64,000 bases of DNA from Allomeiothermus silvanus DSM 9946 (GTDB taxonomy: Bacteria; Deinococcota; Deinococci; Deinococcales; Thermaceae): the NCBI RefSeq assembly GCF_000092125.1, contig NC_014212.1:702001-766000 (forward strand). The letters are read 5' to 3'. Made by a program: the position numbers and the translations under genes. Positions 45,553 to 51,460 of this stretch are shown piece by piece; positions within the stretch are counted from its first letter, which is position 1, and each line of letters starts with the position of its first letter. The notes below the pieces were generated by a model. That model searched no databases, was not told the DNA's origin, and was given only the letters and a program-made list of their open reading frames with translations.

Positions 45553-46470
45553 ATGCTAGCAACCGGAATGGAGATTCTATCCAAAGCCCGCAAGGAGGGC
45601 TATGGCGTCGGGGCCTTCAACGTCAACAACATGGAGTTCGTGCAGGCGGTGCTGGAAGCCGCCGAGGAAGTTAGAAGCCCAGTGTTGCTGGCGCTTTCCG
45701 AAGGGGCCATCAAGTATGGGGGGAAAGCTCTGGCCACCTTGGTGCGCGAGCTGGGGCGCGATGCCAGCGTGCCGGTGTGCATCCACCTCGATCACGGCTC
45801 CTCTTACGAGTCCTGTCTACGGGCTATCCAGATGGGCTTCACCTCAGTGATGATCGACAAATCCCACGAGGATACCGAGACCAACATCCGCGAGACCAAG
45901 CGGGTGGTGGAGGCTGCCCACGCGGTTGGCGTGACCGTCGAGGCCGAGATCGGGCGGCTGGGCGGGGTGGAAGAGCATGTGGCGGTGAGTGCCGAGGAGG
46001 CCTTCCTCACCAACCCCGAGGAGGCCAAGATGTTCATGGACGCTACCGGTGCCGACTACCTGGCCGTTGCCATCGGCACCAGCCACGGAGCCTACAAGGG
46101 CAAGGGCCGGCCCTTCATCGATCACGAGCGCATCAAGGCGATTGCTGCGGCCATCCCCAACCCTTTGGTAATGCACGGGGCCAGCAGCGTACCCCAGTCG
46201 CTAGTAGATGCCTTCCGGGCCGCAGGCGGCGAGATTGGCGAGGCGGCAGGTATCCACCCCGAGGATATCCAAAAAGGGATTAAAGCGGGAATCGCCAAGA
46301 TCAACACCGACACCGATTTACGGCTGGGCTTCGTCGCCAAGATACGGCAAATCCTCAAGGACAACCCCAAGGAATTCGATCCGCGTAAGTTCTTGGGTCC
46401 TGCCCGTGAGGAGCTAAAGCAGATCGTCAAGGCCCGGATGGAACTCTTCGGCTCAGCGGGGAAGGCCTAA
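45553..46470 (+). CDS. fba: Class II fructose-1,6-bisphosphate aldolase
   Basis: The 305-residue zinc aldolase works in glycolysis and gluconeogenesis. Family motifs are YGVGAFNVNNMEFVQA, the zinc region VCIHLDHGSS, SVMIDKSHED, EAEIGRLGGVEE, GTSHGAYKG and VMHGASSVP. The start MLATGMEILSKARKEGYG matches the usual N-terminus of Thermus relatives. The upstream gap holds a degenerate repeat and a TATAGT too close to the ATG to be its -10. Confidence 0.95.
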   Translation: MLATGMEILSKARKEGYGVGAFNVNNMEFVQAVLEAAEEVRSPVLLALSEGAIKYGGKALATLVRELGRDASVPVCIHLDHGSSYESCLRAIQMGFTSVMIDKSHEDTETNIRETKRVVEAAHAVGVTVEAEIGRLGGVEEHVAVSAEEAFLTNPEEAKMFMDATGADYLAVAIGTSHGAYKGKGRPFIDHERIKAIAAAIPNPLVMHGASSVPQSLVDAFRAAGGEIGEAAGIHPEDIQKGIKAGIAKINTDTDLRLGFVAKIRQILKDNPKEFDPRKFLGPAREELKQIVKARMELFGSAGKA

Positions 46471-46626
46471 GCCCGCATTGTGTATAGCGATTGCTTCTGC
46501 ACTCTTACTGCCCCTGCTGAGGTGCTGATACGAGCAACTGATAAGCTTTAGGCGGGTTCGTATAGGCCCGTCTTCGGGATCTTCATCCAACGAAGAGCGC
46601 TCTCCAGCTAGGGCATACAATAAGCT

Positions 46627-49029
46627 ATGCGTTTGCGTACGCTGGGGGGGCTCGAGCTTTCCGGCTCCAACTTCCGCAAAGGGGCGATCAAACCCCTGTT
46701 GCTGCTAGCGTATCTGGCGCTGGAAGGTCCTAAACCTCGGCGCTACCTGGCCGAACTGATCTGGCCCGAGGCTGCCGACCCTATGAATAGCCTCAAGGTA
46801 GTGCTGCACAAGCTGCGCGGTTTGGGAGCTATCTCCGCCGATGAGGAACGGGCCTGGACTGCCCTCGAGTGCGATGCTGTGGAACTGCGCAACTGTTTGC
46901 GTTCAGGGAAGCTTAGAGGGGCGATAGAGCTGTATCAAGGGGCCTTTCTCGAGGGAGCCGAGGGGGACTCGGGAGAGGAGCTGGAAGACTGGATCTACAC
47001 CACCCGCGAAGCCCTGGCCCACGAGGTGCGCCTGGCCTTGCTGGAGTTAGCCGAGCGCGAAGCCGCCTTGGGGCAGTTTGTCGCCGCTGCGGAAAAAGCC
47101 GAAGCCGCCTACCGACTCCCTGGGGCCGCGCCGCTCGAACCCGAGGAGCTTCCACGGTTTTATCCGCTGTTGCTGGCGGGGAATAACCCCTGGGCCGAGA
47201 CGATCAAGCGCGAGGCCCAGGAACTAGGGGTGGAGCTGGCCCTCTCCGGCGAGGCCGCCCGGGGCCGCCTGCGCCAAAGCTTTGTTGGGCGGGAGCGCGA
47301 ACTCGAGAAACTTTCCACCCTCGAGCCTGGAGAGTGGGCTTGGGTACGAGGTGGGGCTGCTACCGGCAAAACTGCCCTGCTGCGGCGGTTGGAGCGGCAG
47401 GGCGGGCTCTACTTACCCGCCCGCCAGGGTTTGCCCTACGCGACGCTCGAGCCGTTATTGGGCAGTGTGGAGGGTGGTCCAACGGAGCTATTGCGCCGCT
47501 TGGCGGGAATATCGGGTTTTTGGCTTTTCGACGGTTGGCACCGCATGGATGCTGAGAGCCGCGAACTCCTGACCCGCCTGCGCGGTCTGGGTAGCAGGGC
47601 TCGGGTGGTGATCGCCTCGAGGGATAGGCCCCCCCTCGAGGTGCACTGCCTGCTCGAGCTGGGGCTGCTCTCCGAGGAGGAACTAAAACATTACCCCGGG
47701 GCCTTCGAGGCTACCGGTGGGGTTCCCGCCTTGGTGGGGGCTTTTTTACGAGAAGAGCCCTTGGAAGAAGCCCTGGATACCCGCCTAGATGCTCTTTCCG
47801 AAGCCGCCCGCGAAATTTATGCAGCGCTCACCCTGCTCGAGACCCCTAATCTTGCTGTCGCCCGCAAATCAGTAGGGTTGGGGCCTGCCGAAACTGCCCA
47901 GGCTTTGGAAGAGCTGCTCTCGGCGGGGTTAGTAGAGCCCTCAGGGGCGGTGCGGGCCAAGGGGGTGGCGCTGCGCTGGCTGACGGGTCGGCCTGCGCTC
48001 GAGGCCTACCTTATCTTGGCCCTAGCCCCCCTGCTTTCCGACCTTGAGGCTTTTCCCCTATACCAACGGGCACGGAATCTCACCGACGGCAGCGAGCTAC
48101 CGGGGATGCACCGGGCTTACTTAGCCTGGGCGGGAGAACTCCTAAAGCGTGGTTTCCCTCAGCGGGCCGCCGAGGTGCTGGCTGAGCTAAGCCCCACTCC
48201 CGAGCTGAGCCTGATGCGCTCCAGGGCTTTGGAGCGGGCTGGGCAGTACAAGGAAGCGCTCGAGGTACTCTCAAGCCTGCCCGACAGCCCCGAGGTGCTG
48301 GCCCTCAAAGGAGCGCTCTTGTGGCGTTTGGGCAAGCCGGAGGAGGCACGAAACGCAGCCCAGCAGGCCCTCGAGGGGAATTCCAGGGCGAGGGCGGAAG
48401 CGCTGAACACGTTAGGTCACCTGGCTTTTTCTGAAGGCAGGTTCGAGGGGGCCTCGACTGATTTCCGCCGGGCGGCTGCTCTTTGGCGAACCTTGGGGGA
48501 GCATGAACGATGGATTGGGGCTTTGAGCAATCTTGCCATTGCCCAAAGTGAACTAGGAGAGTCGACAGAAGAAGCCTTTGCCGAAGTACTACACGCAGCG
48601 AGAGATAATCCGGGCGTACGGTCTCGAGTTCTTCTCAATTTAGGCAACGTGCACGAGCGGAGGGGTAACTTTGACGCGGCAGCCAAAAGCTACATAGAAG
48701 CGTCTGCACAAGCTTTGGAAGCGGGGGCGCTGGATATCTCCGCTCGGGCCTGGAACAATCTGGGGGTAGTGTTTCATAAACAAGGTAGAGCCCAGGAAGC
48801 GGAGAATGCCTACAGCGAAGCTTTGGCGCTTGCCCGTCAGGCGGGGGAATTGCGCCTGACGGGCATGGCTTTGGGTAATTTAGCTGAATTGACACAAGAC
48901 CTAGATGTTCTAGAAGAGGCTATACATTTACTTGAGAGGAGCGGACACACACAGGTGGCGGAAGGCTACAAGGCCCGGCTTGACGAACTCAAGCTCTCTG
49001 GAAGCGGCCATGCCTCCCGGAGTACCTAG
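46627..49029 (+). CDS. BTAD/SARP-like regulator with ATPase and TPR repeats
   Basis: The 800-residue protein begins with a winged-helix-like region (MRLRTLGGLELSG, then YLAELIWPEAADPMNSLKVVLHKLR). A bacterial transcriptional activation domain of helical repeats follows to about residue 185. A STAND/AAA-type ATPase has Walker A GGAATGKT (242-249) and the FWLFDGWH and VVIASRD motifs. The C-terminal 280 residues are TPR repeats (ALNTLGHLAFSEGRFEGA, AWNNLGVVFHKQGRAQEA). It resembles actinobacterial SARP/MalT-like activators. TACAAT five bases before ATG suggests a leaderless message. The subtilase gene 63 bases downstream may be its target. Confidence 0.85.
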   Translation: MRLRTLGGLELSGSNFRKGAIKPLLLLAYLALEGPKPRRYLAELIWPEAADPMNSLKVVLHKLRGLGAISADEERAWTALECDAVELRNCLRSGKLRGAIELYQGAFLEGAEGDSGEELEDWIYTTREALAHEVRLALLELAEREAALGQFVAAAEKAEAAYRLPGAAPLEPEELPRFYPLLLAGNNPWAETIKREAQELGVELALSGEAARGRLRQSFVGRERELEKLSTLEPGEWAWVRGGAATGKTALLRRLERQGGLYLPARQGLPYATLEPLLGSVEGGPTELLRRLAGISGFWLFDGWHRMDAESRELLTRLRGLGSRARVVIASRDRPPLEVHCLLELGLLSEEELKHYPGAFEATGGVPALVGAFLREEPLEEALDTRLDALSEAAREIYAALTLLETPNLAVARKSVGLGPAETAQALEELLSAGLVEPSGAVRAKGVALRWLTGRPALEAYLILALAPLLSDLEAFPLYQRARNLTDGSELPGMHRAYLAWAGELLKRGFPQRAAEVLAELSPTPELSLMRSRALERAGQYKEALEVLSSLPDSPEVLALKGALLWRLGKPEEARNAAQQALEGNSRARAEALNTLGHLAFSEGRFEGASTDFRRAAALWRTLGEHERWIGALSNLAIAQSELGESTEEAFAEVLHAARDNPGVRSRVLLNLGNVHERRGNFDAAAKSYIEASAQALEAGALDISARAWNNLGVVFHKQGRAQEAENAYSEALALARQAGELRLTGMALGNLAELTQDLDVLEEAIHLLERSGHTQVAEGYKARLDELKLSGSGHASRST

Positions 49030-49092
49030 GCGTAACGGTGGCTTAACGACCCTATTGGTACATCTATAAGCAAGGAGCCGCGGAGGTGTGGA

Positions 49093-50544
49093 ATGCGCTG
49101 GATTGGACTACTCATTATCGGCCTTATTGCAAGCTGTAATCAGCAACCGCCCGCACCCCCCAGTATGGCCTTGTACCCCGGTCGGGCGGCGCGGGGTGAA
49201 CTCGTAACCGTGAGCTTGAAGGGGCTTTACGCCGACGGGGCCACGGTGTGGGTGGGCGGGCTTAAAGCAGCGGTGCGCTTCAAGAACGAGCAAACTTTGG
49301 TGGTTGCTGTGCCCAAGGATGTTCAGGCGGGGCCCCAGGAAGTACGGGTTGAATCCGGCAGGCAGATGGCGGTTGGTACGCTCGAGGTCTTAGGGGGTGT
49401 GGTGCCGGGTCAGCTCATCGTCACGCTCAAGCCGGGGGTCAACCGGGACGAAGCGACCCGGCAACTTCAAGCGCTCGGATACCGGATCATCGCGCCGTTC
49501 CAAGCGTTAGGGGGAAACCCATCGGAAAAAGACAACCCGTGCTCGGGCGAATTGGCCACCCTGGATGCGGGAGGAAAACCTTTAGGACAAGCCTTGGCCG
49601 AATTAGAGGCGCTGGATATCGTGTATCGGCCAGACCCCCAGACCGATTGGGGATTTGACGCGGTAGATTACCTCGGGGCCATCGGTGTTCCCGCCGCCCA
49701 GTCTCGAGGCCGCAGCGGTAAGGGCACCACCATCGCCGTGATCGATACGGGCGTCAATAGCCATCCTGATTTAGAAGGCAGGCTCCTCTCTGGCTATGAC
49801 TTTGTAGAGGACGATGCTGTTCCGCAGGACGATTTTGTCAACCCCGCTAACCAAACCCCGCTTCACGGGACGCCCATCGCAGTTTTGGCGGCAGGGGCCA
49901 AGTCGGGGGTGGCTCCCCGGGCCCAGGTGTTGCCGATCAAGGTGTGCGGCAAGGGTGGGCAGTGCCTGGCAAGCTGGGTGGTGAAGGGGGTATGCTACGC
50001 CATCTCGAACGCCGAGCGCAAAACCCTGGTGCTGAACCTGAGCCTGGGCGGGGATACCCCAGTAAGTGTGCTCGAGGCCATCCTCAAGTTCGCGGTTACG
50101 AAAAATGTGTTGGTTGTGGCGGCGGGGGGCAACCAGGGCCCTGATATCCGCGATGGATCGTTCTTCCGGGCTGCGCCCCGGCATTATCCCGCCGCCTACA
50201 GCTTGGGTATGAAGCAGGATGATGGATTGGTCGCGGTGGCGGCCCTTGGCTTCAATTCCAATACCAGCACTTGGGAACCAGCCCCCTTCAGCACCCGAGG
50301 TGTCAACATCACCTACCTCGACATCGCCGCTCCGGGGCAGGATATCCAGCTAGGAGGCTTCACCTATCAGGGCACCTCGTTCGCCACCCCCCTAGTAGCG
50401 GGCGGGTTGGCCCTTTGGCGCGAGGCCAATCCCACCCTGACCCCCGCGGAGATCGAGGCTAAGCTGAAATCCCAAGCTACTGCCTTGCCCTACGCAACCA
50501 ACGAGGTCGGCAAGGGGATGCTCAACCTCTCGAGCCAGCCCTGA
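49093..50544 (+). CDS. Subtilisin-like serine protease lipoprotein with IPT/TIG domain
   Basis: The 483-residue S8 protease is lipidated at C15 (LIASC). Residues about 24-100 form an IPT/TIG-type beta domain (MALYPGRAARGELVTVSLKG), and about 104-135 a fervidolysin-like propeptide segment (GQLIVTLKPGVNRDEATRQL). The catalytic triad is D218 (VIDTGVNSHPD), H258 (LHGTPIA) and S429 (GTSFATP), with oxyanion N347. All catalytic residues are intact. It directly follows the BTAD/TPR regulator gene on the same strand. The start has GGAGG-like bases about 8 upstream (GGAGGTGTGGA). Confidence 0.92.
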   Translation: MRWIGLLIIGLIASCNQQPPAPPSMALYPGRAARGELVTVSLKGLYADGATVWVGGLKAAVRFKNEQTLVVAVPKDVQAGPQEVRVESGRQMAVGTLEVLGGVVPGQLIVTLKPGVNRDEATRQLQALGYRIIAPFQALGGNPSEKDNPCSGELATLDAGGKPLGQALAELEALDIVYRPDPQTDWGFDAVDYLGAIGVPAAQSRGRSGKGTTIAVIDTGVNSHPDLEGRLLSGYDFVEDDAVPQDDFVNPANQTPLHGTPIAVLAAGAKSGVAPRAQVLPIKVCGKGGQCLASWVVKGVCYAISNAERKTLVLNLSLGGDTPVSVLEAILKFAVTKNVLVVAAGGNQGPDIRDGSFFRAAPRHYPAAYSLGMKQDDGLVAVAALGFNSNTSTWEPAPFSTRGVNITYLDIAAPGQDIQLGGFTYQGTSFATPLVAGGLALWREANPTLTPAEIEAKLKSQATALPYATNEVGKGMLNLSSQP

Positions 50545-50638
50545 CCTGGGGGTGAGGGTGGATCGTAGCGGCTGGGCCCGGCGAACCGGGGAAAGACCGG
50601 GAGGGAGAGCAGAGGGAAAAACCCTCCTCGGCCACTGT

Positions 50639-51460
50639 CTACCGCATCGAGATGGAGCCGTTGGAGCTCTCTAGCCACAGCTTGGCCGGATTCCTCCCGG
50701 CTTGTTGGGCACTAAAGCTCTGGCGGCGGGCCTGCACACGGGTGTCCTGAAGTTCAACGCTCACGCTACCGTTAGAGGTGTGGCCCTCGGCCTCCAAGCC
50801 TCCCGGGGCCTGCAACCCTACCACTTTTACCGAGCCGTTGCTGGTAGCGGCCCTGCTCTGGGAGCCGGGCGGGAGGGTGAGGCCTTCCAGCGCTACGGCC
50901 CCATTTGAGGTGCGGGCTTCTACCGCGCCCTCTACCTGGCGAAGCTCGATGGCCCCGTTAGAGGTCTTGGCCGAGACCGGCCCCTGGGCTTCCATAACGC
51001 TAATGCGGCCATTGGAGGTGTGAAGCTTTATTTCGGCGGCCCCGCTGCCCTTCACGGTGATGGCCCCGTTGGAGGTGCGGGCCTCCAGGCGGGCCATACT
51101 CCCTTCGCTGTGGATGGCCCCGTTCGAGCTATGCAGGATTAGGATTAGGCCTTCGGGCAAGGTCAGCTCAAAACTAGCCCCGCAGCCCGGGCAGATGGGG
51201 GAGTTCTTATGGGCCTCGATGTAGAAGGAGTCGCCGCGGGGCTCGAGGGTAATGCTCACGTCCCCTTTGCGCCGGATGGTCAGGTGGGGCGGCGCGGTTC
51301 CTACCCGCACGCTGATTGAGCCATTGAAGGTGTGGGCCTCGAGCTGCCGGATTCCTCCCAGGTTCAATGCGTGATCTTCCTGCACGGTCGGTTCGGTGCC
51401 AATGCCCAAAAGCCCCAATAGATCAGCGACGTGTTGTTGCGGCGAAAGCCTATTGGCCAT
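50639..51460 (-). CDS. DUF4097-type beta-helix protein with TSNGAI repeats
   Basis: The 273-residue protein has a short N-terminal helix (MANRLSPQQHVADLLGLLGIG) and then about nine beta-helix coils marked by HTFNGSI, HSSNGAI, RTSNGAI, HTSNGRI, KTSNGAI, RTSNGAV, ATSNGSV, HTSNGSV and ESSNGSI. This is the DUF4097 (putative adhesin) pattern. No signal peptide is seen. ATG 51460 is chosen because AAAGGAG lies 8 bases before it; the small ORF upstream overlaps it by 11 bases, so the two are probably coupled. Relatives in Firmicutes often sit in PadR-controlled envelope-stress operons. Confidence 0.82.
   Translation of the reverse strand: MANRLSPQQHVADLLGLLGIGTEPTVQEDHALNLGGIRQLEAHTFNGSISVRVGTAPPHLTIRRKGDVSITLEPRGDSFYIEAHKNSPICPGCGASFELTLPEGLILILHSSNGAIHSEGSMARLEARTSNGAITVKGSGAAEIKLHTSNGRISVMEAQGPVSAKTSNGAIELRQVEGAVEARTSNGAVALEGLTLPPGSQSRAATSNGSVKVVGLQAPGGLEAEGHTSNGSVSVELQDTRVQARRQSFSAQQAGRNPAKLWLESSNGSISMR

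Follow-up and report, generated by a model that had tools for sequence, protein, structure and literature searches.

A 64,000-nucleotide stretch of the Allomeiothermus silvanus DSM 9946 genome (hereafter the window; positions 702001-766000 of contig NC_014212.1, or C1, in a three-contig genome of 3,721,669 bases) contains an AfsR-like transcriptional regulator followed on the same strand by a secreted S8-family subtilase. The adjacency of these two families is conserved in relatives far beyond chance and is specific to particular regulator types. Taking the evidence together, we favor the view that the pair constitutes one self-regulated operon for an anchored surface protease, a reading that we judge somewhat likelier to be right than wrong. 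As the preliminary description of this DNA had stated, an 800-residue regulator is followed after 63 bases (49030-49092) by an intact subtilase, and we confirmed both open reading frames. The features on which the operon reading draws are, in window positions:

46616-46621, forward strand: TACAAT, a -10 box and candidate leaderless promoter, ending 5 bases 5' of the regulator ATG
46627-49029, forward strand: regulator open reading frame, AfsR-like, 800 residues, ATG start, intact
49082-49087, forward strand: GGAGGT, the Shine-Dalgarno sequence of the protease
49093-50544, forward strand: S8 subtilase lipoprotein open reading frame, 483 residues, ATG start, intact, catalytic triad D218/H258/S429

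Regulator-protease linkage and expression signals

Conserved adjacency in Deinococcota was the test that the preliminary description had set for its own proposal, and the adjacency is there. Where the regulator is full-length, that is, includes a nucleoside triphosphatase (NTPase) domain, 23 of 26 loci have a same-strand S8 gene directly after it; at one of the other three (L070) the record ends 25 bases past the regulator, with an S8 gene within ~0.5 kb beyond the circular origin. Short-type regulators, which lack the NTPase (open frames of 557-764 residues), have a same-strand S8 gene in 39/39 cases, often with a lipoprotein gene in between. No same-strand S8 gene accompanies the other BTAD-TPR regulators (0 of 20 with at least 1.5 kb downstream; mostly 900-1100 residues long and from Trueperaceae), although at one such place, L151, an S8 gene lies on the opposite strand; the other BTAD places of the A. 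silvanus genome likewise have none within the 13-15 kb fetched (0/9). Many of the short-type loci were picked from two search lists combined. When loci fetched by a regulator match alone are considered, S8 is present in 15 of the 16 belonging to the two types, the exception (L240) ending at a contig edge, and in none of four others. Individually named loci, largely the same places as the main set, give 12/13 for the full-length and 10/10 for the short type. Three loci fetched because both searches matched (L121, L122 and L124) stand outside these linkage counts and inside the protease alignment (A2) and the 67-locus residue counts given below. Near-identical genomes or copies occur among the loci (L073/L074, L081/L082, L072/L087, L119/L120), and L155 and L242 seem to be one gene.

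Distances among regulators and among their proteases are strongly correlated (Mantel r 0.89 over 52 pairs, with none of 2000 permutations as high), a correlation to which common descent contributes; duplicates and broken or partial copies were excluded (L074, L082, L084, L085, L087, L113, L115, L118, L120 and L241). The regulator family extends over Meiothermus, Calidithermus, Thermus, Trueperaceae and Deinococcus. On contig C2 of the A. silvanus genome itself, a stretch with a short-type operon occurs as an inverted pair (L073/L074, C2:1-17000 and C2:252000-270000); it comprises a regulator, the lipoprotein c4, an S8 gene and further lipoproteins. By eye, the companion genes c2, c4, c6, c7, c10 and c14 in L073, L080 and L101 are all lipoproteins; c7 has a Laminin_G_3 domain and c10 a propeller, and the other four gave no Pfam match at E<=0.01. 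At L102:1-7249 a full-length pair lies beside a divergent set made up of a propeller lipoprotein, a large S8 gene and a second BTAD-TPR frame of 1050 residues.

The two genes also differ in their start signals. Of the regulators, 36 of 50 have a TANNNT motif 5-9 bases 5' of the start, compared with 0 of 42 proteases and 2.7% of 6,912 background ATGs, and a Shine-Dalgarno core precedes 2 of 50 regulators and 28 of 42 proteases, against 7.5% of the same background. Because the -10 box lies at the regulator start, and the protease has a Shine-Dalgarno sequence and no such box, the regulator and protease are probably carried on a single transcript that starts, leaderless, from the -10 box at the regulator ATG. 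Sections of PMC12340547 describe leaderless mRNAs with such boxes at the start codon as already known from this phylum. A Sigma-70 scan of 46400-50760 returned 0 sites, against 0.8 in shuffles.

Parts of PMC10936776 describe SARP sites as direct repeats that lie close to the -10 box with a spacing of 11 or 22 bp. Of 82 distinct regions preceding regulator genes, 33 contain heptamer pairs with a spacing of 11, compared with a mean of ~12 at 15 other spacings (8-23), and 12 contain hexamer triples with this spacing, compared with at most 3 at each of spacings 8-10 and 12-15. By type, the spacing-11 pairs occur in 7/25 full-length, 9/31 short and 17/26 other BTAD-TPR regulators. Since 17 of these 26 protease-less regulators also carry such pairs before their own gene, self-control may be general for BTAD-TPR regulators in Deinococcota.

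We propose the following model for the operon. The cytoplasmic regulator would act as an AfsR-like 'large SARP', its winged-helix/BTAD unit activating transcription and its STAND-type NTPase and TPR sensor imposing a block that ATP and a ligand would lift, a gating that we infer from AfsR and MalT. Transcription of its gene would start, leaderless, from the -10 box at its ATG. The operon would also turn itself on, as suggested by the 11-bp direct repeats that part of the family carries before the regulator gene. From this one transcript would also come an S8 lipoprotein, which would be exported and lipid-anchored at Cys15 and would fold into a TIG-like domain followed by a prodomain and a subtilisin domain. 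The pair C150-C301 would keep the two halves joined after self-cleavage, yielding an active yet tethered surface protease.

Architecture of the regulator and the protease

Based on its predicted model and an alignment, from which the domain borders are taken, the regulator comprises a winged-helix/BTAD-like part (residues ~1-215), a STAND-type NTPase (~216-460) and a TPR region (~485-791). The TPRs give strong Pfam matches. The NTPase is marked by D302 and by a Walker A motif, with a weak match to AAA_16 (E 0.035); G247, K248 and D302 are invariant across 19 full-length relatives.

47350-47373, forward strand: Walker A motif GGAATGKT (residues 242-249)

A search of the genome with PF03704 matched 11 other places and gave no match at the regulator locus itself. 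Residues 16-156, however, match C1:2592362-2592808 of the same genome (E 1.8e-15), a region overlapping a 65-bit Pfam BTAD match, and 2 of the 19 full-length relatives are matched by BTAD directly. On these grounds of relatedness we regard the BTAD label as correct in the face of a missing direct Pfam call, so that the BTAD/ATPase/TPR composition put forward earlier stands. The AlphaFold model (pLDDT 88.7, pTM 0.64) finds its best fold match in the STAND-TPR protein 6mfv (E 1.2e-13, at a TM of just 0.25). In the model the N-terminus has a pattern of strands and helices that may reflect an OmpR-type winged-helix DNA-binding domain, with no family or PDB profile match, the PDB profile search having given two matches, both weak and unrelated by name. 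Structural alignment of the TPR part gives Z ~20 for Rap and NprR; many unrelated TPR proteins score as high, and fold matches this common were rejected as a pointer to the ligand. No hydrophobic N-terminus was seen by eye.

How close is the regulator to known activators? It possesses the NOD/STAND NTPase and C-terminal TPR region by which large SARPs are recognized, an NTPase that its short-type relatives lack. With AfsR of Streptomyces coelicolor (a large SARP, SARP-NOD-TPR) it shares the order of a putative winged helix/BTA unit, NTPase and TPR, and part of its family shares 11-bp direct repeats located close to the -10 box. Sections of PMC10936776 describe the NOD and TPR parts of AfsR as inhibiting the SARP part, and ATP binding as relieving that inhibition. 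There are also differences: the window regulator has 800 residues against 986 positions in the AfsR equivalog model NF053617 of NCBIfam, which it matches at 31.6 bits, far under the curated cut-off of 1430, and AfsR governs secondary metabolism, whereas the family described here would serve one dedicated operon and includes members without an NTPase. MalT-type STAND activators likewise combine a STAND NTPase with a TPR sensor, and the Pfam family TPR_MalT scores 40.2 bits, just under its cut-off of 45. MalT binds DNA through a C-terminal LuxR-type domain, whereas the window regulator would do so through its putative N-terminal SARP-like unit.

The protease matches the Pfam S8 family with E 1.1e-38 (133.6 bits against a cut-off of 21.8) and retains the full triad with the oxyanion residue N347. 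Its parts are as follows:

49135-49137, forward strand: Cys15 of the lipobox LIASC; 24 of the 27 partner proteases in the alignment have Cys at this place
49162-49389, forward strand: TIG-like beta domain (residues 24-99)
49405-49638, forward strand: subtilisin prodomain (residues 105-182), from the model's alignment to pro-subtilisin E 3whi
49540-49542, forward strand: Cys150, within the prodomain region and predicted to pair with Cys301, from column conservation
49993-49995, forward strand: Cys301 in the catalytic domain, from column conservation

The lipobox, recognized by eye, would place the protease at the cell surface through a lipid anchor, as had been suggested. An IPT/TIG domain had also been claimed: in the window the TIG match falls below the Pfam cut-off (12.2 against 20.9 bits), whereas the model (pLDDT 88.8) shows beta strands throughout residues 24-99 and 7 of 27 partner proteases give a TIG match at E<=0.01. 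Residues 105-483 of the model superpose on unprocessed pro-subtilisin E (3whi; Z 41.5, 2.6 A over 327 residues), and Tk-subtilisin is matched with Z ~39. These proteins share a prodomain and a catalytic domain with the window protease, which adds a lipid anchor and a TIG-like domain before the prodomain and in which a cysteine pair spans prodomain and enzyme. The triad and the oxyanion Asn show no variation among the 27 partner proteases in A2. Over 67 partner loci, the window locus and near-duplicates included, the catalytic Asp is kept in 61, replaced by Gly in 4 and lost to a gap in 2 broken copies. Thermus versions (L089, L119, L120 and the named loci L145 and L160) lack the lipobox and by eye have a hydrophobic start resembling a membrane anchor.

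The window protease has five cysteines, at 15, 150, 285, 291 and 301. C150 and C301 are present in all 27 proteins of A2, and C285 and C291 in 26, being lost jointly in L069; over the 67 partner loci the counts are 66 for C150, 61 for C301, 64 each for C285 and C291, and 61 for C150 and C301 together. Among 11 S8 proteases not preceded by a regulator of this family, cysteine is absent from all of positions 150, 285, 291 and 301; one of the 11 (L225) has a TPR-like frame adjoining. This pattern suggests disulfide bonds 285-291 and 150-301. Because the anchor lies N-terminal to the prodomain, self-cleavage would release the enzyme; with the prodomain thus placed between lipid anchor and enzyme, we predict a disulfide-tethered surface pro-protease.

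A small reading frame at the protease start

Most partner operons contain an unannotated frame of 17-20 codons (the mini-ORF) at the start of the protease gene. In many relatives it begins with ATG-CC 52, 58 or 61 bases 5' of the protease start and runs into the protease. At most loci no stop precedes the protease start; its stop overlaps that start as ATGA in L090/L232, L229 and L230, and as GTGA in L084. Codons with a single difference in the -52 group are synonymous/nonsynonymous at 114/50 in the mini-ORF frame, compared with 17/178 and 30/160 in the other frames, and codon phase is absent from the 45 bases 5' of the mini-ORF; for the -61 group the corresponding values are 247/148 in frame and 147/284 and 75/367 out of frame. 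Judged by these substitution patterns, the mini-ORF is under purifying selection in the relatives.

When a model built from 28 mini-ORF peptides was applied to 82,536 peptides beginning at start codons in the loci, scores exceeded 14 bits solely at places 49-103 bases before partner proteases, a few of whose starts are uncertain. With a threshold of at least 14 bits, the mini-ORF is found in 14/23 full-length pairs, 30/39 short pairs and L112; among loci outside the training set, several of them copies of loci used, it is found in 3/12 full-length and 14/23 short pairs. L085, L236 and L238 score 8-9 bits. It was not recognized in the window or in L094, L095, L071, L105, L107, L108, L117, L118, L239 and L241, nor in the lipobox-less Thermus loci L089, L119, L120, L234 and L235, nor in L121, L122 and L124. 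The window has at best a degenerate counterpart:

49010-49069, forward strand: 19-codon open reading frame with an ATGCC start, overlapping the regulator end, -3.2 bits by the mini-ORF model

Opening of a Shine-Dalgarno hairpin by the mini-ORF was not supported over 29 leaders, among them L121 without a true mini-ORF (accessibility of the Shine-Dalgarno sequence averaged 0.36, compared with 0.40 for shuffles, at a mean rank of 28 of 60). We also rejected the idea that the mini-ORF is part of a longer gene overlapping the protease: beyond the protease start its frame is rich in Gly, Pro and Arg and differs between loci, and long open frames are expected there because third positions are GC-rich. 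A 57-residue annotated open reading frame in pMtWR-220 resembles a deletion remnant of lipoprotein c4 and was rejected as a mini-ORF. It is conceivable, and we hold this only tentatively, that the mini-ORF is a third component of the operon, either a translation-gating leader or a ligand of the TPR regulator, that was lost or rebuilt in the window clade.

Competing explanations and significance

Several observations weigh against a self-regulated protease operon. The window regulator's own promoter shows no 11-bp direct repeat. The excess of spacing-11 pairs comes mostly from BTAD regulators without a protease, and within types the spacing is tied, full-length regulators having 7 pairs also at spacing 15 and the short type 9 also at spacing 21. 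BTAD is not among the best 25 of 27 Pfam families matched by the regulator at E<=1, and residues 1-230 alone match no Pfam family. L109 and L111 retain a full-length regulator and lack S8. Finally, one divergent clade (L117, L118, L239 and L241) has Gly for the catalytic Asp and lacks C301, while keeping C150 in proteins of 7-10 cysteines; because of this clade, protease activity and the 150-301 bond would not be universal, and its members may be inactive or use another catalytic residue, as possible pseudoproteases beside the same kind of regulator.

Could the protease be a scavenging enzyme under its own control, in a neighborhood merely inherited and without regulatory meaning? Several Meiothermus loci share the flanking families c3 and c5 with the window, so the linkage is partly vertical; short-type pairs, however, sit in varied flanks, some of them on plasmids, and still keep S8 without exception, and not one protease has a -10 box at its start. 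We consider this explanation improbable. Still less credible, and in our judgment very unlikely, is the sensor-effector module of the preliminary description, taken here as a STAND regulator that would detect invasion or damage together with a protease serving as defense or death effector. A STAND-like NTPase does lie beside a protease, and PADLOC returns generic models, for TPR (E 1.2e-10) and for subtilase and IetS (1.4e-16 and 3.6e-6), and nothing else. With regard to the IetAS defense system, which combines an IetS protease with an IetA ATPase, the IetS match covers the S8 region alone, the NCBIfam model IteS scores 13.6 against 900 bits, and the regulator has no IetA match. The regulator is of a predicted DNA-binding type, and, lacking a hydrophobic N-terminus, it would occupy a different compartment from a protease whose lipobox and prodomain would put it outside the cytoplasm. 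Moreover, the short type retains its protease without any NTPase, and the companion genes encode surface lipoproteins. In conflict systems covered by parts of PMC7159879, S8 occurs as a peptidase domain alongside NucA nuclease domains within the same polypeptide, unlike the separate genes here. No defense genes were noticed by eye beside the pair among the window open reading frames. We take the 5' neighbor, from its translation, to be a fructose-bisphosphate aldolase, and on the 3' side, on the opposite strand, an open reading frame without an assigned name is followed by what is presumably a phosphoribosyl pyrophosphate (PRPP) synthase.

A peptide-sensing circuit resembling RRNPP systems deserves separate consideration. 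In the NprR-NprX-NprA system of the Bacillus cereus group, a TPR transcription regulator, a small open reading frame and an extracellular protease form one circuit, and here too the TPR region might bind a peptide, either the one encoded by the mini-ORF or pieces set free by the surface protease, and so drive the operon. The purifying selection on a mini-ORF between regulator and protease in most relatives, and the alignment of the TPR part to Rap and NprR, speak for such a circuit, although the latter is shared with so many unrelated TPR proteins. The mini-ORF is unrecognizable in the window's clade and by eye has no signal sequence, and, because most mini-ORFs lack a stop ahead of the protease start, they would have no discrete peptide end. 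The NprR system differs as well, having another DNA-binding domain and no NTPase, a secreted propeptide and a protease of another family. RRNPP receptors, as defined in sections of PMC10075063, are TPR proteins of 250-500 residues beside a secreted propeptide of 10-100 residues, dimensions that the 800-residue regulator exceeds. We give the peptide-sensing circuit little credence. The self-regulated operon, which corresponds to the simpler alternative already raised, an activator of an exported protease, possibly one with a part in nutrition, fits best the specific linkage and the pattern of promoter and Shine-Dalgarno signals.

The operon is assembled from known kinds of parts, and no description of the regulator/protease pair or of this combination was found among the papers that searches of open-licence PubMed Central brought up. 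For AfsR-like regulators outside Actinobacteria, the association suggests a function, the dedicated control of one surface protease. Two novelties accompany it: a predicted disulfide-tethered, membrane-anchored subtilisin, and a conserved mini-ORF missed by annotation. If the mini-ORF peptide were the ligand of the TPR regulator, the system would represent a peptide-sensing protease circuit outside Firmicutes.

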